This document shows, piece by piece, positions 5,361 through 61,345 of a DNA stretch of 64,000 nucleotides (its first letter is position 1; each line of letters starts with the position of its first letter). Source of the DNA: Monodelphis domestica (taxonomy: Eukaryota > Chordata > Mammalia > Didelphimorphia > Didelphidae); NCBI RefSeq assembly GCF_027887165.1, contig NC_077230.1, positions 328,026,415 through 328,090,414 on the forward strand, given 5' to 3'. The notes under the pieces are model-generated. The model was not told the origin of the DNA. It saw only the letters and a program-made list of their open reading frames with translations, and did no database searches. Made by a program: the position numbers and the translations under genes.

Positions 5361-5625
5361 CCAGCAGTGTAGTTCAGTGAAAAGAGCCTCATATGCAGAA
5401 TTGAAGGATTTAAACTCGAATCTGCAGGCAATTCTGGCATATATGTGTTTATATTTAATGTGTATTTATAACCATATATGTATGCATACATGTATGTATG
5501 CATGTATGCATGCATGCATGTATCAAATCACTTAACCTCTCTTCCCCTCAGCTTCCTCTTCAGTGAAAGGAGAAGTTAGGCTTGATGACCTCAAAGGTCC
5601 TTTTTTGTTCTATATCCTATGAAGA
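5361..5625 (+). mobile_element. CORE/MIR-type SINE carrying a TGTA/TGCA microsatellite
   Basis: The 5' part gtgtagttcagtgaaaagag and 3' part atcacttaacctctcttccc with gatgacctcaaaggtccttt are MIR-like. The middle has been replaced or expanded by the repeat at 5440-5522. Confidence 0.65.
5440..5522 (+). repeat. TGTA/TGCA microsatellite
   Basis: Imperfect tatg/tgca units (tgtatgtatgcatgtatgca) inside a MIR-type SINE. Confidence 0.9.
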
Positions 5626-13345: not shown

Positions 13346-13545
13346 GCATTAGCAGAACTCGTTATTTAAAGAAACTCTTTGGTAGGCTGAATAAAGAATA
13401 TTTATCCACACATTTGTCTGCTATAAAAATCCAGATTTTCACAAACTGGGTTTGTGGTAAAGAGACAACACACCTGAAGAAGATCACAGAATTTAAAGCT
13501 GGGAAGGACAACAGAGATCATGAGTATATGCATATATGTAATATC

Positions 13546-13550
13546 TATCC

Positions 13551-13593
<43 letters not shown>

Positions 13594-13621
13594 CATCCAT
13601 CCATCCATCCATCCATCCATC

Positions 13622-13680
<59 letters not shown>

Positions 13681-14195
13681 ATGTGTGTGTTTACCCAAGA
13701 TAGATACAGAGATAGATAGATGGACAGAGAGATACAGATCAACAGGTAGATACAGTGAGATGGATAGGTAGATACATATTGAGAGATAGATACAGAAAGA
13801 TAGAGAGAAAGATAGATGGATAGATAGATACAGCTTAACAGATAGATACAAAAAGATGGATAGATACAGATTGACAGAGAGATAGATCAATAAATACAAA
13901 TTAACAGATACATACAAAAAGATAGATACAGAGAGAAAGATGGGTAGATATTGATTGACAGATAAAGAGAGAAAGATGGATAGATACAAAAAGATGGATG
14001 GATAGGTAAATACCAATTGACAGATACATACGGAAAGATAGATACAGAGAGATACAGAGAAGTAGATGGATAGATAGAGACAGATCAACAGATAGATACA
14101 AAGATAATTAGATAAATAGATACAGATCAATAGATAGATATAGAAAGATAGATACAAAGAGATAGCCGATCAACAGATAGCTAGATAGATATTAG
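13546..14195 (+). repeat. Composite tetranucleotide array with strand switch
   Basis: ATCT units (13546-13591), then ATCC units (to about 13620), then ATCT units (to 13680). After a spacer of about 20 bp, the strand-reversed form (gata, gaca and gaga units) continues for about 490 bp in degraded form. The two arms are partly complementary. Reading frames through it code only low-complexity peptides. Confidence 0.95.
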
Positions 14196-14228
14196 AGTGT
14201 TTATTAAGAGCTTACTATATAAGTTAGT

Positions 14229-48529: not shown

Positions 48530-51500
48530 TTGGGAGGCAAGATGGAGGAGCAAACTATAGCAGCTCCATGTTACCAAGAGAATCCTCTCTGACCAAGATT
48601 AAAATATCACCACAAAACGAATACAAATACAGCAATGAAAGAACCAACAAGAACACGGAGTGAAACAACTTTCAAGAAAAGAAAAACCTAAAAGGTAGGC
48701 AGAGATTATCTGGGGAACTGGAGTGAGAGGAAAACAGAGCCAGCAAAAGAATGTAGTAAGGAGGGAAGAGCAAGGCAAGAACAATGCCCCCACCCCCTTC
48801 TGTTGTCCCAGGTTTGGAACTGAAGCTCAAGACCACCTTCAAATCTTGATATGCTGCTTGGGCAAATAGTGGTATAAGCCAAACGCACACCCCTTGAAAT
48901 TTCAAACCTGTGGAGAAGTCTGGAGTCCTATCCCAGGGCAATCTGGGCTGAAGTGGACTGATCCGTGTGGGCCCAGAGTGAAGCCAGGATTTCCAATCTG
49001 GGCTTGGGATAATGACCTGGTACACAGTTTGGGGTGGCTGATAGTACTAAGTACTGATCTTTCTGCCTAAAACTCAAGGGGGAAATCTAAGACAGGGCAA
49101 TCAAGGGTGTGCCTGATTGGATCAAGTACACAGCAAGACCAAAAACTTGAGCCTAATCCTGGGGCTAGAATTTGATCATCCCCTGAACTGATCAATGTCA
49201 GAATGAAATCAAAAGCTTATGCCCAAGCCTGAGGCAAGTCCTTAAGTCATCAGCATCTTGAATCAGCAGGGGAGGGGGCTCCCAGAGCTCTCAGCTCTCA
49301 GACCCAGAAAGTAAGTTGAGAATAACATCAAGGACTGATGTTTAAGATGGTACCCTACCTTCTGAGAAAACAGAGCTTACCTATAATTAGATAGGAAAAA
49401 TGAGCAAACAACAACAAAAAAGCACCAACTCTAAAGAATTTTTATGGAGACAAAGAGCAAGGTACAGACATAGAAAGGGACAGTGAAAGCAAAGGAAACT
49501 CATGCAAAGTCCAAAAGAAAAATATGAATTTGACACAAATTCTGAAAGAGATAAAAAAAGACTTAAAAAAACAAATTAAGATAGGCAGAGGAAAAGTGAG
49601 GGAGAGAAATGAAGGTGATGCAAGAAGAAATGGACCAATTGAAAAAGGAGAACCAAAAACTGAAAGAGGAAAATCAGGTCTTAAAAATCATAATTAACCA
49701 TCTAGAAACTAATGATTTTATGAGGAATCAAGAAATAATAAATAAGAATCAAATGAATGAAAAAAAGAGAACAGGAAATATATTATTAAATAAATAACTG
49801 AACTAAAAACAGATTTAGGAGAGACAATTTGAGAATTATTGGACTACCTGAAAGCCATAATCAAGAAAAAACCTTGGATGTCATATTACAAGAAATTATC
49901 AAAGATAACTGCCCAGAGATCCTCAAACAAAAAAATAAAATTGAAATCGAAAGAGTTCACAGATCACCTCCAGAAATAAATCCTCAAATGACAACTTTGG
50001 GGAATATAATAGTTAAATTCAAAAGCCACCAAGCTAAGAAGAAAATTCTCCAAGCAGCCAGAAAGAAACCATTCAAATACCATGGAGCTACAATCAGGAT
50101 CACATAGTACCTAGCATCTTCTACATTAAAGGATTGAAAGGCATGGAATATGATATTCAGGAAGGCAAAGGATTTGGGATTATAACCCAGAGTCATCTAT
50201 CCAGCAAAACTGAATATATTCTTTCAAGGGGAAAATGGGCATTCAATAAGATAGAAAATTTTCAAGCATTCCTGAGGAACAAGTTAGACTTAAACAAAGA
50301 AATTGAAGTCCAAAATGAGACATAAGACAAGTTCAAAAAGATAAATAAGAGAGAGAAATTTTAAGGAACTCATTAAGGTTGAAATGTTTATGTGAGTATA
50401 TGGGAAGAAGATTTCCATAGTTCTCAAAAATTATTCTTAAAATAGAGAAGACAAGGAATTTACTCAGAAAGAGGGTGGAGAAGTAAGCTGATTATGATGA
50501 AATGATATACATGATGATATACGATGATATGATGTGTATGTAAATGTGATGATATGGAACAATATGTATATATGATATAAAATGTATGCATATGGATGAT
50601 ATGTATAAATCAATCAAGGGCTGAAAGAGAATGTTGAACTGAAAGAAAATGGACAGGAGAGATAGAATGGTGTAAATTATATAACAAAGAGTCATGAAAA
50701 GTCTTTATAGAGAGGGGAAGATAAGGGTGGTGATGGGCAACACTTAAACTTTACTCTCATCTTAACTGACCCAGAGAGGGAAAAACAAGTATATTCAGTG
50801 GGGTATAGAATTCTATCTTTTCTTCCCAAGAAGTAGAAGAGAATAAAACAAGGAAAAAGGGAGGTAATTGGAGGGAACGGGAAAGGGGAGGGGTGACAAA
50901 AAGCAAAATACTGGTGAGGAAGAACAGAGATAAAGGGAATGGAGCAGGATCTAAAGGGGATGATAGGATGAAGGGAAATACACAGGTAGTAATCATAATG
51001 CTGAACGAGTATGGGATGAACTCACCCATTAAACAGAAGCAGATAGCAGAATGGATTAAAAACCAGAATCCTACTATTTGTTGTTTACAAGTAACATATT
51101 TGAGGCAGGGTGACACACACAGATTCAAGGCTGGGGCAGAATTTATTATGCATCATCTAAAGTAAAAAAAAAAAGCAAGAGTAGCAACCATGATATCAGG
51201 CATAACCAAGGTAGAAATTGATCTGATTAAAAGAGATAAGGAAGGAAATTATATTTTGTTAAACGGTACTATAAAGAATTAAGTAATATCATTACTAAAC
51301 TTTTATACACCAAATAATATAGCATCTAGATTTCTAAAGGAGAAATTAAAGGAATTTTAAGGGGAAATAGAAGACCATACTAGTCGGGGATCTCAACCTT
51401 CCCCTTTTCAGAACTAGATAAATGGAACCAAAAAATAAATAAAAAAGAAATAAGGGAAATGAAAGAAATGTTAGAAAAATTAGAGTTAATGGAGATCTGG

Positions 51501-53020: not shown

Positions 53021-53336
53021 ATGACAGTCAATAATCGGGAGAAGAAAGATGGAAATTTTCATGTTTTTTACTATATTTTAAGTGAAGAATATGATCAGGA
53101 TGACACATTATAGCACCCTGAAATTGAACAAAATGAAAATGAGGAAAAGTATTCAAGAAGAAGTTGTGACCAAATAGGAACTACTGAAAGCAAGAGTCAA
53201 AAATCTTCTGAAAATTCCAGACAGTTGACTCCAAAGCCACCTAGCTTCTCCATTAGCACAGAGCAATAAAAAAAAAAAGTCAATGTGAAAAGACTTCAGT
53301 CAGGAAAAGGCATCTAGAAAGAAGGACTGAGTCTTT
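53021..53336 (+). pseudogene. YTHDC1: YTHDC1 retrocopy, 5' part (N-terminal coding region)
   Basis: From the ATG at 53021 the frame reads MTVNNREKKDGNFHVFYY, then QDDTL, a stop at 53111-53113, and on through EIEQNENEE and SRQLTPKPPSFSIS before further stops. This follows the YTHDC1 N-terminus (REEKDGELNVLDDIL, EQDDELYNPESEQDKNE, SRQLVSKPLSSS) residue by residue without introns. YTHDC1 is the nuclear m6A reader that steers splicing and export of methylated RNA. The copy is broken by stops and then interrupted at 53337 by the L1; it resumes at 59751. The 52796-53020 stretch before the ATG could include 5' UTR, but I cannot assign it. The protein comparison is from memory of the human protein. 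Confidence 0.88.
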
Positions 53337-53714
53337 TTTTTTTTTTAAATTTTAATATTATTTTATTTGGTCATTTTCATACATTATTCACTGGAAACAA
53401 AGATTGTTTTCTTTTCCTCCCCTCCCCTCCCCCCCCCACCCCCCCGCCTTTCCCTCTCCCATAGCCGACGCATGATTCCACTGGTTGTCACATGTGTTCT
53501 TGACTCGAACCCATTTCCCTGTTGTTGGAGTTTGCATTATAGTGTTCATTTAGAGTCTCTCCTCAGTCTTATCTCCTCCAACCCTGTAGTCAAGCAGTTG
53601 CTTTTCAGCGGTGTTTTTACTCCCACAGTTTATCCTCTGCTTGTGGGTAGTATTTTTTTTTTTAGATCCCTGCAGATTGTTCAGGGATTGCATTGATACT
53701 AATGGAGAAGTCCA
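53337..53714 (-). other. L1 3' UTR with G-rich polypurine tract and poly(A)
   Basis: The 3' UTR runs from the ORF2 stop to the poly(A) tail (T run 53334-53346 on the plus strand, partly shared with the target duplication). A strongly C-rich plus-strand tract at 53418-53448 is a G-rich polypurine run on the L1 strand, with several runs of four or more G, which could form a G-quadruplex. Such tracts are a known feature of mammalian L1 3' UTRs. Confidence 0.8.
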
Positions 53715-56700
53715 TCACCTTCGATTGTACCACAATGTATCAGTCTCTGTGTACAATGTTTTCCTGGTTCTGCTCCTCTCGCTCTGCATTACTTCCTGGA
53801 GGTTGTTCCAGTCTCCATGGAACTTCTCCACTTTATTATTCCTTTTAGCACAATAGTATTCCATCACCAACATATACCACAATTTGTTCAGCCATTCCCC
53901 AATTGAAGGGCATCCCCTCATTTTCCAATTTTTGGCCACCACAAAGAGCGCAGCTATGAATATTTTTGTACAAGTCTTTTTGTCCATTATCTCTTTGGGG
54001 TACAAGCCCAGCAGTGCTATGGCTGGATCAAAGGGCAGACAGTCTTTTATCGCCCTTTGGACATAGTTCCAAATTGCCCTCCAGAATGGTTGGATCAATT
54101 CACAACTCCACCAGCAATGAATCAATGTCCCCACTTTGCCACATCCCCTCCAGCATTCATTACTTTGCATAGCTGTCATGTTAGCCAATCTGCTAGGTGT
54201 GAGATGATACCTCAGAGTTGTTTTGATTTGCATCTCTCTGATTATAAGAGATGTAGAGCACTTTTTCATGTGCTTATTAATAGTTTTGATTTCTTTGGCT
54301 GAGAATTGCCTGTTCATGTCCCTTGCCCATTTATCAATTGCAGAATGGCTTGATTTTTTGTACAATTGATTTAGTTCTTTATAAATTTTAGTAATTAAAC
54401 CCTTGTCAGAGGTTTTTATGAAGATTGTTTCCCAATTTGTTGCTACCCTTCTGATTTTGGTTACATTGGTTTTGTTTGTACAAAAACTTTTTAATTTGAT
54501 GTAATCCAGATTATTTATTTTGCATTTTGTAACTCTTTCTAATTCTTGCTTGGTTTTGAAGTATTTCCCTTCCCAAAGGTCTGACATGTATACTATTCTG
54601 TGTTCGCCTAATTTTCTTATAGTTTCCTTCTTTATGTTCAAGTCATTCATCCATTTTGAATTTATCTTGGTGTAAGGTGTGAGGTGTTGATCTAAGCCTA
54701 ATCTTTCCCACACTGTCCTCCAATTTTCCCAACAGTTTTTATGAAATAGTGGATTTTTGTCCCAAAAGCTGGGATCTTTGGGTTTGTCATATACTGTCTT
54801 GCTGAGGTTGCTTGCCCCCAGTCTATTCCACTGATCCTCCTTTCTGTCTCTTAGCCAGTACCAAATTGTTTTGATGACCGCTGCTTTATAATATAGTCTG
54901 AGATCTGGGACTGCAAGACCCCCTTCCTTTGTGTTTTTTTTCATTAATTCCCTGGATATCCTTGATCTTTTGTTCTTCCAAATGAACTTTGTTATGTTTT
55001 TTTCTAAATCAGTAAAAAAATTTTTTGGAAGTTCCATGGGTATGGCACTAAATAGATAGATGAGTTTGGGTAGGATGGTCATTTTTATTATATTGGCTCG
55101 TCCTACCCATGAGCAGTTAATGTTCTTCCAATTGTTCAAGTCTAGTTTTAGTTGTGTGGAAAGTGTTTTGTAGTTGTGTTCATATAGATCCTGTGTTTGT
55201 CTCGGGAGATAGATTCCTAAGTATTTTATTTTGTCTTGGGTAATTTTGAATGGGATTTCTCTTTCTAGTTCTTGCTGCTGAGCTGTGTTGGAATTATATA
55301 GAAATGCTGATGACTTATGTGGGTTTATTTTGTATCCTGCAACTTTGCTAAAGTTGTTGATTATTTCAATTAGCTTTTTGGTTGAGTCTCTAGGATTCTT
55401 TAAGTAGACCATCATGTCATCTGCAAAGAGTGATAATTTGGTCTCCTCCTTGCCTATTTTGATGCCTTCAATTTCTTTTTCTTCTCTAATTGCTACTGCT
55501 AGTGTTTCTAATACAATGTCAAATAATAGAGGTGATAATGGGCATCCTTGTTTCACTCCTGATCTTAATGGGAATGGGTTTAGTTTATCCCCATTGCAGA
55601 TGATATTAGCTGATGGTTTTAGATATATACTGTTTATTATTTTTAGGAATGACCCTTCTATTCCTATGCTTTCTAGTGTTTTTAGTAGGAATGGGTGTTG
55701 TATTTTATCAAAGGCTTTTTCTGCATCTATTGAGATAATCATGTGATTCTTGTTGGTTTGCTTGTTGATGTGGTCAATTATGTGGATAGTTTTCCTAATG
55801 TTGAACCAGCCCTGCATCCCTGGTATGAATCCTACTTGATCATGGTGGATGACCCTTCTAATCACTTGCTGGAGTCTTTTTGCTAGTATCCTATTTAAGA
55901 TTTTTGCATCTATATTCATTAGGGAGATTGGCCTATAGTTTTCTTTCTCTGTTTTTGGCCTGCCTGGCTTTGGAATTAGTACCATGCTTGTGTCATAAAA
56001 GGAGTTTGGTAGGACTCCCTCTTTGCTTATTATGTCAAATAGTTTGTGTAATATTGGGGTTAACTGTTCTCTGAATGTTTGATAGAATTCACTGGTGAAT
56101 CCATCAGGCCCTGGGGATTTTTTCTTAGGCAGTTCTTTGATGGCTTGATGGATTTCAATTTCTGATATGGGATTATTTAAGAAAACTATTTCTTCTTCTG
56201 TTAGTCTAGGCAATTTATATTTTTGTAAATATTCATCCATATCACCTAGGTTGGTATATTTATTGCCATATAGTTGGGCAAAGTAGTTTTTAATGATTGC
56301 CTTAATTTCCTCTTCATTTGAGGTGAGATCCCCCTTTTCATCCTTGATGCTATTAATTTGCCTTTCTTCTTTCCTTTTTTTAATTAAATTAACCAGTACT
56401 TTGTCTATTTTGTCTGTTTTTTCAAAGTACCAGCTTCTAGTCTTGTTTATTAGCTCAATAGTTCTGTCACTTTCTATTTTATTAATTTCTCCCTTAATTT
56501 TTAGGATCTCTAGTATGGTTTTCTTCTGGGGGTTTTTAATTTGTTCATTCTCAAGTTTTTTTATTTGCATTTCCAATTCCTTGGTTTCTGTCCTCCCTAA
56601 TTTGTTAATATATGCACTCAGGGATATGAATTTTCCTCTAAGTACTGCCTTGGCTGCATCCCATAAGGTTTGAAAGGATGTTTCGCCGTTGTCATTTTCT

Positions 56701-57521
56701 TCAACGAAATTGTTAATTGTTTCTATGATTTCTTCTCTAACTATCCGATTTTGGAGTATCATGTTATTTATTTTCCAATTAATTTTTGATTTGGGTCTCC
56801 ATGTACCCTTGCCGATCAATATTTTAATTGCCTTGTGATCTGAAAAGGCTGCAGTTAATATTTCTGCTTTTCTGCATTTAAGTGCCATGTTTCTATGACC
56901 TAGTGTATGATCTATTTTTGTGAATGTGCCATGTGGTGCTGAAAAGAAGGTGTATTCTTTTTTGTCCCTATTTATTTTTCTCCATATGTCTATTAATTCT
57001 AATTTTTCTAAGATTTCATTCACCTCTTTTACCTCTTTCTTATTTATTTTTTGATTTGATTTATCTAAATTTGATAGTGGTTGGTTCAAGTCTCCCACTA
57101 ATATGGTTTTACTGTCTAATTCCTCCTTCAATTCTCCTAGTTTCTCTATTAAAAATTTGGATGCTATACCATTTGGTGCATACATGTTGATTAGTGATAT
57201 TTCCTCATTGTCTATATTTCCTTTTAGCAGAATATATTTACCTTCCCTGTCCCTTTTGATCAGGTCTATTTGTACTTTGGCTTTGTCAGATATCATGATT
57301 GCAACTCCTGCCTTCTTTCTATCGGTTGAGGCCCAAAAGGTCTTACTCCAACCTTTAATTCTAACCTTGTGAGTGTCAACCCGTCTCATATGTGTTTCTT
57401 GAAGACAACATATGGTAGGGTTTTGTGTTCTAATCCAATCTGCTATTTGTCTGCGTTTTATGGGTGAGTTCATCCCATTCACGTTCAATGTTATGATTGT
57501 TATTTGTGGATTCGCTGGCAT
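53715..57521 (-). CDS. L1 ORF2 protein: endonuclease and reverse transcriptase
   Basis: The 1268-residue ORF2p nicks target DNA and reverse transcribes L1 RNA at the nick (target-primed reverse transcription). An APE-like endonuclease covers about residues 1-235. It shows N13 in LNVNG, E42 in LQETH, the YAPN motif, D144 and N146 in GDLNQPL, a [15 protein letters not shown] block and SDHKAI near its end. The reverse transcriptase carries FADD at residues 699-702 within [10 protein letters not shown], and the preceding [13 protein letters not shown] block. The C-terminal Cys-rich segment starts at C1123 with C-x3-C, a later H and a C. The length is close to human ORF2p (1275). The canonical EN block GDFNTPLS reads GDLNQPLS here, with the catalytic Asp and Asn kept. 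ORF2p is also the likely source of the enzyme that mobilises SINEs and retrocopies like those in this window. Confidence 0.95.
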
Positions 57522-58202
57522 TTTGATGTCTTCCCCTAGTTCTGCCCTTTCTTCTTTAGCTTTCTCCTTTTGAACCAGTGATTTACTTTAGGTCAGTCCC
57601 CCTAGTCCCCTCCCTTGAGATGCTTCCCTTTCTAGCCCCTCCCTTTTTATGCTCCCTTCCCCTCCCCCCTCTCCTTCCCTCCCTTTTTGTACTCCCTCCC
57701 CCCCCCCTTAATTTTCCTTTCTTTCTTGCCCTAATGGATAAGATAGAATTTAGGATCCCACTGGATCTAGATGTTCTTCCCTCTCAGATTTGATTTCACT
57801 GAGAGTAAGGTTTAAGTAATTCCACTTCACGCTCTCTTCCTCTCCTTCTCATATGAGAGTTCTTCCCCTCCCCTTCCCATGTGTATCTTTATATGGGAAA
57901 GTTTATTCTATTGATTCCCCCCCTATTTCTTGAAGTTAATCTTAGTATTATCACGGTTCCTCCCTCCCTTTTCCTTTTTTTGCCCCAACTTTCCCCAAAT
58001 CTTCTTAATTCCCCAATCTTTCCCTATGCATGTTTCTTCTAACTACTCTTATGATGATACAATTTATAAGAGTTACACAAAACATTTTCCCCACATATTA
58101 ATATATATAATTAGATGTAAATGTAGTCCTTATAGAAGGGAGTTTGACTTAAAGAGAAAGATAAGATTTATCTCCTTTTCCCTTTCTTTCATATTTACCT
58201 TT
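57522..58202 (-). other. Long L1 inter-ORF spacer
   Basis: The gap between the ORF1 stop and the ORF2 start is 681 bp, against about 63 bp in human L1. On the sense strand it contains several G-rich runs (plus-strand C runs around 57640-57715) and no substantial open frame. It may help ORF2 translation, but that is inference. The other two L1s with 5' ends in this window also have long spacers. Confidence 0.8.
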
Positions 58203-59186
58203 TCATGTTTCTCTTGCTTTCTGTGCTTGGATATCGAACTTTCCACAGAGCTCTGGTCTTTTCTTAGCAAATGCTTGGAAATCTTCTATTTTGTTGAATG
58301 CCCATACTTTCCCCTGGAAGTATATAGTCAGTTTTGCTGGGTAGTTGATTCTTGGTTGGAGACCCAGCTCTCTTGCCTTTCTAAATATCGTGTTCCATGC
58401 TTTGCGGTCTCTTAGTGTATTAGCCCCTAAGTCGTGTGTGATCCTTATGGGAGCCCCCTTATATCTGAAGCTTTTCTTCTTGGCTTCTTGTAGGATTTTC
58501 TCCTTTACTTGGAAGCTCTTGAATTTGGCAATTACATTCCTAGGCGTTGTCTTTTGGGGATTTAGTATAGAAGGTGTTCTATGAATCCTTTCTATTTCTA
58601 TTTTGCCCCCTTGCTCCAGAACGTGGGGGTAATTTTCTTTTATAATCTCCTCTAGAATAAAATCCAATTTTTTGTTTACCTCTGGTTTTTCTGGGAGACC
58701 GATGATACGGAGATTTTCTCGTCTTCCTCTGTTCTCCAGGTCCGTGACCTTCTCAGTGAGATATTTTCTGTTTTCTTCCAATTCATTAATTATTTGGGTT
58801 TGCTTTATTGATTCTTGCTGTTTTATCATCTCACTTTCTTCGAGGTCCTTAATTCTGGTCATTAGGGACTGGATTTGCTTTTCAGCCTTGTCTGCCCTTC
58901 TATTGGATGCTTCGAGTTCTTTTTCCAATTGAGCAGTCTTATCTGTCAGACAGCTGATCTCTTTCTCCCATTTTTCTTTCCAGAAGGTTTCCATCTTTTG
59001 GATAAGTTCCAGTTTGAGATCTTCCAGAGCTTGTTGATAGTTTCCATTTTGGGAGGCGTGTTCTGAATTTTTTTGGATTTCCTCCTCATTCTCCTCTTTT
59101 CCTTGGGTACTTCCACCATAAAAGTTTTCAATAGTCACTTTTTTCCCTTTCTTCCTGGAGGCTTGATTTTGGGCCATGTGAGCCAT
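58203..59186 (-). CDS. L1 ORF1 protein: RNA-binding chaperone
   Basis: The 327-residue ORF1p coats L1 RNA as a trimer and acts as a nucleic-acid chaperone. A basic N-terminus (KKGKKVTIENFYGG) is followed by a long Glu/Lys/Leu-rich coiled coil at about residues 55-155. Then comes the RRM with RRENLRIIGLPE, and the C-terminal domain with ARELGLQPRINYPAKLTI and GKVWAFNKIEDFQAF. All are standard L1 ORF1p landmarks, and the size matches human ORF1p (338). The start chosen is the first ATG of the frame (MAHMAQ); the nearby second Met four residues in is an alternative. Its N-terminus differs from the MSKQQ start of the other two L1s in this window, while the RRM and C-terminal domain are clearly related. 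Confidence 0.93.
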   Translation of the reverse strand: MAHMAQNQASRKKGKKVTIENFYGGSTQGKEENEEEIQKNSEHASQNGNYQQALEDLKLELIQKMETFWKEKWEKEISCLTDKTAQLEKELEASNRRADKAEKQIQSLMTRIKDLEESEMIKQQESIKQTQIINELEENRKYLTEKVTDLENRGRRENLRIIGLPEKPEVNKKLDFILEEIIKENYPHVLEQGGKIEIERIHRTPSILNPQKTTPRNVIAKFKSFQVKEKILQEAKKKSFRYKGAPIRITHDLGANTLRDRKAWNTIFRKARELGLQPRINYPAKLTIYFQGKVWAFNKIEDFQAFAKKRPELCGKFDIQAQKARET

Positions 59187-59750
59187 CCCTTTGGTGGTTT
59201 TATTTCCCTTTCCTTTTTGGTCTGGGGTCTGGGTTATAAGAGCGGTTTTTCTGTGAATTTAGGTTGCTTCAGACTAGTTCTTCCCAGCCTCCGAGCCCAG
59301 GTATTCAGCTCCGCCCAGATAATCAGCGCGCGTTGTTCAGCGCAGCCCGCACCGAGTCCAGGTCCACTGGATTCTCCAGTGTAAGCGCCCTGAGACGTTT
59401 TTTTCCTGGCAGTCCCCAGATCCCAAGGACCCTGGATTCCCCCCCCAGACAGAGACGCTCCCCACTCACTCGCTGTCCCGGTGAGCGCTCAGGTAGCTCA
59501 CTCTGGTTTAGTGGGGGAGGTGGGGTGGGGGAAGGGCGGCTCAGTTCACTTTTCTGTGCAAGCTTTTCCTTCTTATTTTAGTGTGGAAATGTTCAAGCCC
59601 CATGTACCTTTGCCTCTGTGGGGTACTGGGGAGTCCTTCTGTTCCTCCAAAGGTGATTTTATGCTCCTTTGATGTAGTCTATTTCGTTCGGTGCTGGGGA
59701 GAGGAAGCGTGCCGCTTCTAGATTGCAGCCATGATTACCCGGAAGTCCCC
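59187..59750 (-). promoter_or_regulatory. L1 5' UTR with CpG-rich promoter, YY1-like and ETS-like sites
   Basis: This 564-bp leader precedes ORF1. The stretch 59275-59490 holds about 14 CpGs in roughly 215 bp, a sharp contrast to the CpG-poor surroundings. Within the first 30 bases of the element, on the L1 sense strand, lie an ETS-type core ACTTCCGG (59739-59746 on the plus strand as ccggaagt) and a YY1-like ATGGCTGC block (59725-59737). Human L1 has a YY1 site at the same place that sets accurate initiation; the equivalence here is inferred. No TATA box is seen near the start. Confidence 0.7.
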
Positions 59751-61345
59751 AGGACTGAGTCTTTCACAGCAGACAGTTACCAGAGAATTCAGCAGGATGT
59801 TGATAGGTGGAATGGCAGATCAAACCTTTCTTCCAAAGAAGTAAGCTTTGAAGAATATGACCACGAGACTGACATGAGGAACTCTTCTGAAGAAGAGCAC
59901 AGAAACTGTAGAAGGAATGAGGCAGAAGGAATGGAAAAAGAGGAAGAGAGGGATGCTGGGAGAAAAGATGAAGAAGATAGAGGGGAGGAGGAAGAGGAAG
60001 ATGAGAGAGACCAAAAAGAGAGAAGCAACTATGATACTCCATGTGAAGCCAATGACTCTTATTCTGAGACTGTATTTTTCCCAGAAGGGTCAGTCACCTC
60101 TGGTTCTAGCACTGATGGAGCAGATGTGAAAAAACAAGGAAGTAAGAGAGCCAGAGGCATAGCTTCAATTGTTTTTGTAGAAGTCCAATTTTTATATCAG
60201 AATCATTTGCAGGTTCAGAAAAGAAGCACAAGAAATTATCATCTTCTTCATGTTCATGTTGTTCAGAAAGATCAAACAAGGAGACAAATATATTCTTTGG
60301 GATGCAAAATTCTTTCTTATAAAAAGTAGCAACCATGAAAACATCTCTCTTGCTAAAGCCAGGGGTATATGGCCGACATTTCCAGCAAATGAAAAAAAAA
60401 TTGAATGCTGCATTCAGATCTTCAAGAAATGTAATTTTGATATTTTCCATGGGAGAAAGTAGAACATTTCAAGGCTTTGCAAGACTCTCTTCAGAATCCC
60501 ACTATGGAGGATCTTCTATACATTTGTTTCTGCCTGAAGCTATGAATCCTAAAATGTGTGGAGGTGTCTTTAGAATTGACTGGATTTGCAGGCATGAATT
60601 GCCCTTCACCAAATCGGTTCACCTTACCAATGCTTTGAATGGACATGAGCCAGTTAAAATTGGACATGATGGACAGGAAGTTGACCTTGAGTGTGGAACC
60701 CAGCTATGTCTTCTATTTCCCCTTGATGAAAGTGTTGACTTGTATCAGATCATTCATAAGAAGAATTGCAAGAGAAGAATGAGTTCACTGTTTCATTCAA
60801 GAGGATGTCCATCCCATCGAGAACCAGTCCAGGATATGAGAAGGCATCAGATAGAAGATTATGATGTTCATAAGATTAGAAAGAAATCAAGGATGGACTA
60901 TGCCCCTGGGTTTCATCAGAGACCAGGGCATAGAAAGGATGCACACTATCAAGAAGCAGACAGAAGATTTTCAGGAATTCCCAGAGATGTTTTCTTAAAT
61001 GGCTCCTATGATGATTATTTGAGAGCATTTCACAACACGAGATCACCATCACCAATTCAGGGAATGTCCCCTTATCTAGGACGAGAACAGTCTTCATATC
61101 ATCCTTGCTATCAGTATCATGCTCTTCCTTTTCAGGACTCTAATTGAGGGCATAAACCTGTACTACATGAAGCAAGACACAGAGATAAACCAGCATGCAA
61201 TTATGATAAGTGGGTAGATGACTTTCTTTGTAAAACATGAGCTATTGTTAGTGGTCAGAGAAGTAGATCCTGTGAAAGAGATAGAGATAGAGAATGTGAA
61301 AGTTCCAGATATATCAGAAGACACAGGGAGAAGGATCAATGGAAG
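59751..61345 (+). pseudogene. YTHDC1: YTHDC1 retrocopy, 3' part (acidic region, YTH domain, C-terminus)
   Basis: After the L1, the copy continues with SSKEVSFEEYDHETD, a Glu-rich acidic stretch, DERDQKERSNYDT, then a YTH domain (about 60215-60760) and the C-terminal [35 protein letters not shown] and DDFL blocks of YTHDC1. Frame changes occur around 60200-60345, and a stop at about 61145 precedes the last recognisable codons. The YTH aromatic cage of human YTHDC1 uses W377, W428 and L439. The copy keeps the first Trp (GIWPTFP) but has Leu for W428 (SIHLFLPEA) and Cys for L439 (KMCGG). It therefore cannot be a working m6A reader even apart from the frame breaks. Absence of introns marks it as a processed copy of the mRNA. 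Confidence 0.93.

Follow-up and report, generated by a model that had tools for sequence, protein, structure and literature searches.

A full-length L1 with both reading frames open inside a YTHDC1 retrocopy of the opossum Monodelphis domestica

Anatomy, coding capacity and insertion site

We analyzed a 64,000-nt stretch of the Monodelphis domestica genome, hereafter the window (assembly GCF_027887165.1, contig NC_077230.1, positions 328,026,415 to 328,090,414 of the forward strand). Its minus strand carries, at window positions 53337-59750, a full-length LINE-1 (L1) retrotransposon of 6,414 bp. Read in the sense orientation, the element consists of a 564-bp 5′ untranslated region (UTR; 59187-59750) that starts with GGGGACTTCCGG, a first open reading frame (ORF1; 58203-59186) of 327 aa with RRM-like and C-terminal domains, an intergenic spacer of 681 nt (57522-58202), an ORF2 of 1268 aa (53715-57521) with endonuclease, reverse transcriptase (RT) and Cys-rich C-terminus, and a 378-bp 3′ UTR (53337-53714) with a G-rich purine tract, an AATAAA at 53362-53367 and a terminal run of A. 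Two copies of AGGACTGAGTCTTT, identical at 14/14 bases, abut the L1 exactly on both sides, at 59751-59764 next to its 5′ end and at 53323-53336 next to its 3′ end. This target-site duplication (TSD) is firm over 11 bp, because three bases at its 3′ side (AAA in sense) merge with the A tail. A first-pass annotation of the sequence had proposed this anatomy, including the lengths of both ORFs and of the TSD, and it held to the base. The element thus combines a TSD and an A tail, as expected for target-primed reverse transcription (TPRT). As a control, the 5′ flank of each of 21 copies was compared with the 3′ flanks of the others; matches of at least 14 bp turned up in 1 of 420 such pairs, and of at least 10 bp in 19 of 420.

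The 5′ end of the element is complete, since 19 of 20 relatives fetched from the same genome start at element positions 1-5, in line with the full 5′ UTR of the first-pass annotation. An internal promoter is predicted in this region. Its first nucleotides (within 59715-59750) comprise ACTTCCGG, which is ETS-like and intact in 16/20 full-length copies including that of the window, and a YY1-like ATGGC at +19. Screening of 53300-59800 against Rfam at gathering thresholds returned no RNA family, and no relative of the element was found in the viral_contigs collection.

Both ORFs are uninterrupted. The ORF2 product matches the structure of human ORF2p (8sxt) across residues 3-1257 of 1268, with 1541 bits, and contains PF00078 and PF03372. 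Read by position, its residues agree with human N14, E43, Y115, D145, N147, D205 and H230, as well as with D600, D702 and D703 in the RT. A 19-residue motif, also read by position, begins at residue 1122. The catalytic residues and the Cys-rich end claimed earlier were both recovered, and the protein combines an APE-type endonuclease, an L1-clade RT and a Cys-rich C-terminus, as LINE-1 ORF2p does. ORF1 in turn has the RRM-like and C-terminal domains of ORF1p (PF02994, PF17490); human ORF1p (2ykp, 117 bits; 2ldy also matched) aligns only with its C-terminal part, residues 107-313. In UniProt the closest proteins to both ORFs are from Monodelphis domestica (98% each), followed for ORF2 by Sarcophilus at 75%, whereas full-length eutherian ORF2 matches are only ~50-54% identical. 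A protein search with the ORF2 C-terminus (best 120 of 2,529 matches) revealed one close opossum match, 96% identical over 65%, and added no dating power. Human LINE-1 (L1HS/L1RP) is alike in the order of ORF1 and ORF2, endonuclease, RT, Cys-rich end, A tail and TSD. We predict that both proteins of the window L1 are functional.

The L1 lies antisense within one intronless, degraded and frame-broken copy of YTHDC1 on the plus strand, which it splits into a 5′ part (53021-53336, its start read from the translation) and a 3′ part that includes the YTH domain (59765-61164, the end of the tested stretch). When the flanks are joined with one TSD copy, a single frame continues through the junction; presumably, this frame is that of YTHDC1 ahead of its YTH domain. 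At other places in the genome, the right flank finds intronless YTHDC1 paralogues with 78-86% identity, among them single copies at C1:689.81 Mb (86%), C5:17.69 Mb (85%) and C3:24.89 Mb (83%). All seven fetched paralogues (L030-L036, the last four being units of one tandem array) span the site without an L1. The site aligns in one piece in five of them and in two pieces in L031 and L032, where a short unaligned stretch lies upstream of the junction, not at it. At the four junctions that were read (L030-L033), the duplicated sequence is present once, with 1-2 base differences. These empty sites are paralogous rather than orthologous, and they prove the insertion, not its date.

In the tandem array itself, at C1:667373330-667639410, an intronless YTHDC1-like gene is repeated at least 36 times on one strand, as counted with 40 of 89 candidates scored. 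Spacings of 3.93-3.96 kb separate 27 of its 35 neighboring pairs, and the other eight spacings are near multiples of that value. A 658-aa frame is open in 4/4 fetched units (L033-L036). Identity of L034 to the remaining three is 99.4-99.98%, and the YTH domain was confirmed in this unit. The array looks like an amplified retrogene array of an m6A reader and may be of more interest than the L1.

A young L1 family and the age of the insertion

To place the element among its relatives, 37 copies, window included, were scored from 541,372 first-look candidates in the opossum genome. In ORF2 all of them reach an identity of at least 99%, and 33 have no internal stop there. The 20 best-ranked of the 36 other copies, ranked by ORF2 score against the window copy, were fetched for comparison. 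Nineteen are full-length and one (L021) is 5′-truncated at position 905; exact TSDs of at least 13 bp flank 16, duplications of 10-11 bp, where chance is possible, flank three, and L024 has none. The window copy differs from these relatives at 34-79 of ~6,370 positions (39 of 5,473 for L021), that is, by 0.5-1.2% (98.8-99.5% identity). Sharing its 5′ start with this young family and being ~99% identical to it in DNA, the window copy is a member of the family, distinguished by its own private changes. The divergence check proposed in the first-pass annotation, run on these 20 close copies, thus left recency standing. The remaining L1 fragments in the window are only 68-76% identical.

Among UniProt protein clusters, the window L1 is 97-98.5% identical to Monodelphis ORF1 clusters P0121-P0123, and 98% identical over the aligned part to ORF2 clusters P0002/P0004. 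These two no longer follow the family sequence beyond residue ~863, whereas the window ORF2 is open to the end. Two further opossum ORF1 clusters, P0137 and P0140 (87 and 42 members), are only ~60% identical to the window ORF1, and ORF2 clusters P0001 and P0003 are ~90% identical to its ORF2, which suggests very unequal divergence of ORF1 and ORF2 between lineages if these clusters belong together.

Both ORFs are open in 12/20 fetched relatives (13/21 counting the window copy). The window copy is therefore ordinary for the opossum, and the rarity implied in the first-pass annotation did not survive the comparison. Among the titles and abstract openings found in literature searches, none described this locus; none of these searches targeted its position. 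Sequence comparison supports recent activity of the family. L1 activity in M. domestica has been inferred from recent SINE amplification, as stated in the text of PMC4476161, and another text lists the opossum among 14 mammals with families below 5% divergence (PMC7140322). A single locus reveals a young opossum L1 family with at least 12 other intact full-length copies.

In the comparison of 21 copies, the window copy has 19 singletons, and its spacer lacks 1 nt in a deletion private to it. Subtracting four singletons (positions 35, 5410, 5418 and 6313) with the blemishes described below leaves 15 private changes, or 0.24%. The mutation rate given for the Virginia opossum is 2.35e-9 per base per year, or 4.6e-9 per generation (PMC13247528, as its text reports it). 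The former dates the insertion to 1.0 Myr (0.56-1.65) and the latter, with 8-month generations (as given in PMC9995274), to 0.34 Myr (0.19-0.56). Retaining all 19 singletons extends the range to 1.98 Myr, for an overall rough span of 0.2-2 Myr. These ages are rough estimates of an upper type, since the private changes may come from an unsampled source. Two further lines agree with youth. The observed/expected ratio of CpG in the 5′ UTR is 0.51 (21 CpG), whereas 102 chunks of equal size from the rest of the window have a median of 0.06 and do not exceed 0.23, and a simple neutral calculation with assumed indel ratios of 0.08-0.16 gives both ORFs a 5% chance of survival at 0.34-0.55% divergence.

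Interpretation and competing explanations

With the anatomy, the TSD, the uninterrupted paralogous sites and the membership in a near-identical family observed directly, we hold, at a probability of roughly 0.9, that this is a full-length L1 with a 14-bp TSD, antisense in a broken YTHDC1 retrocopy, likely inserted by TPRT less than about 2 Myr ago, and predicted to specify working ORF1p and ORF2p. A source L1 would have been transcribed from its internal promoter, and its RNA would have been bound by ORF1p and ORF2p. ORF2p would then have nicked the bottom strand of the YTHDC1 retrocopy within an A-rich site (CTTT/CA) and reverse-copied the L1 RNA starting at the nick, and second-strand synthesis would have produced the TSD. 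The claim of a recent, coding-competent copy made in the first-pass annotation is sustained by low divergence from 20 copies, high 5′ UTR CpG, open ORFs and a perfect TSD. The window L1 is usable for genotyping, since its insertion can be dated and empty sites exist in paralogues.

Several observations nevertheless weigh against this interpretation. The poly(A) tail announced in the first-pass annotation is present but short, with 10 A, or 13 at most when the bases shared with the TSD are counted. The window copy is not among the youngest, its 19 singletons being the third most of 21, behind L024 (31) and L025 (22) and far from L010 (5); the sharing screen was applied to the singletons of the window copy only. 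In that screen, the singleton at position 35 recurred in four copies retrieved with a 5′ pattern, of which two differ from the window copy by 1.6-1.7% and two by 4.7-10.4%; 5410 and 5418 are shared with 8/8 fetched older copies, and 6313 lies within a run of G. There are private coding changes as well, N172K, C186Y and A254G in ORF1 and L251I in ORF2, while the ORF2 singleton P1061A is the state of the eight older copies; in total, the singleton coding changes comprise five nonsynonymous and five synonymous ones, none at the catalytic residues read. The comparison set is biased to similar and open copies because it was picked by ORF2 similarity. Finally, a PDB search with the translation of the joined flanks gave no match, so that the retrocopy is assigned to YTHDC1 by its YTH domain and its DNA paralogues.

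The first-pass annotation had also raised the possibility of a currently or recently active source element. A copy that is active now and has already left daughters would be expected to have open ORFs, unchanged catalytic residues and a young family, all of which the window L1 shows, yet it carries private coding changes, and nine tested private variants in its 5′ UTR and ORF1 are absent from the four 5′-pattern copies and from 19 full-length relatives. The 5410/5418 pair does occur at 85 places including the window, but the eight fetched of the 84 others are old copies, 86-93.5% identical. No descendant was thus found among the few copies examined (23 by private variants and eight by 5410/5418); we deem an active source with progeny unlikely, and a source role possible but unsupported. 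Less probable still is an old insertion, preserved by chance or kept so. The window copy does exceed 18/20 compared copies in singletons, but a divergence of just 0.5-1.2% from its relatives and of ~0.24% in private changes, the retained CpG of the 5′ UTR and the low neutral survival of both ORFs under the assumed indel ratios all speak for a recent event; the even split of private coding changes is too small a sample to show constraint. As for the assembly, near-identical 6.4-kb repeats collapse easily, and 37 copies at 99-100% in ORF2 might have been polished towards a family consensus. Private variants, an own 14-bp TSD and flanks collinear with the paralogous retrocopies make such an artefact hardly credible.

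Element positions 5410 and 5418, equivalent to 54341 and 54333 in the window, are neighboring old-family states in an otherwise young copy. A short tract around them could have been converted from an older L1, in which case the copy would be a mosaic: both positions, 9 bp apart, have the state of 8/8 older copies and of 0/19 young full-length ones. The pair is explained equally well, however, if the copy descends from a somewhat earlier offshoot of the young family in which these states were retained; position 35 is common to two copies of similar divergence, and the tree places the window copy with low support (0.15). We regard conversion as a reasonable but less probable account than its opposite, and the recent TPRT insertion of a family member as the explanation to be preferred.

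A long spacer between ORF1 and ORF2

The inter-ORF spacer measures 680-687 nt in 21/21 copies and is therefore a family trait. On the plus strand of the window, an older L1 has a homologous spacer of 631 nt (50336-50966), 56% identical as compared with 43-47% in ten shuffles, which indicates that the long spacer is old in the opossum lineage. Human L1 translates ORF2 by reinitiation across a short gap. Constructs based on human L1RP have 63 bp between the ORFs, as described in PMC3091869, in contrast to the 681 nt of the window copy. The survey text of Yang et al. 2014 gives spacers of 18-580 bp across 31 species, long ones in marsupials, Laurasiatheria and Afrotheria (PMC4072516), and the opossum spacer is beyond this published range. 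Long spacers have been described in megabat L1 lineage 1 (445 bp; PMC4072516) and in perissodactyl families (~280-500 bp, varying by lineage; text of PMC5872511). The latter are shorter than that of the opossum and from another host order, while the megabat lineage is extinct and was reconstructed, whereas the opossum spacer belongs to a young family.

In the window copy, the spacer contains six AUGs, none of them beyond nt 353 and each opening a short ORF of 7-26 codons. Its last 328 nt are AUG-free and ~74% purine. A 3′ AUG-free stretch of 328-334 nt is found in 20/21 copies (126 in L011), being common to the 21 young copies by descent. Against 2.25 AUGs expected in the last 328 nt, none was observed (P 0.10), and an AUG-free 3′ run of such length had a P of 0.015 in whole-spacer shuffles, so this absence is only mildly unusual and no more than suggestive. 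The last 328 nt also folded worse than shuffles (z +2.14; 100/100 shuffles at least as stable), which led us to reject a structured internal ribosome entry site (IRES) there.

To reinitiate at ORF2, ribosomes would need to cross 681 nt with six AUGs on the way, and for this reason an entry of ribosomes within the spacer is worth naming. Tentatively, and with considerable doubt, ribosomes might land on or scan the AUG-free, purine-rich and unstructured 328-334-nt stretch, and ORF2 would be translated from there rather than by reinitiation. In megabats, as the text of PMC4072516 reports, removal of the spacer AUGs lowered retrotransposition, and its authors favor reinitiation; this result counts against the entry reading. 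In the same source, the intact 445-bp spacer performed 8.8-fold better than a shuffled one, yet inhibited 26- to 40-fold in culture, and the persistence of an inhibitory spacer is described as what may be the hardest point to reconcile. For the mouse L1 spacer an IRES has been published before, and for some mammalian spacers IRESs have been predicted (as cited in PMC4072516 and PMC9252281), so only the opossum case and the unstructured form would be new. If the entry reading were true, a kind of spacer that is costly in culture would persist as a translation element of ORF2. A very long spacer in a young family makes the question of spacer persistence testable in a lineage that is likely still active.

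Elsewhere in the window, positions 13542-14196 hold an array of microsatellite repeats that is rich in TATC/GATA and in which longer periods are nested.

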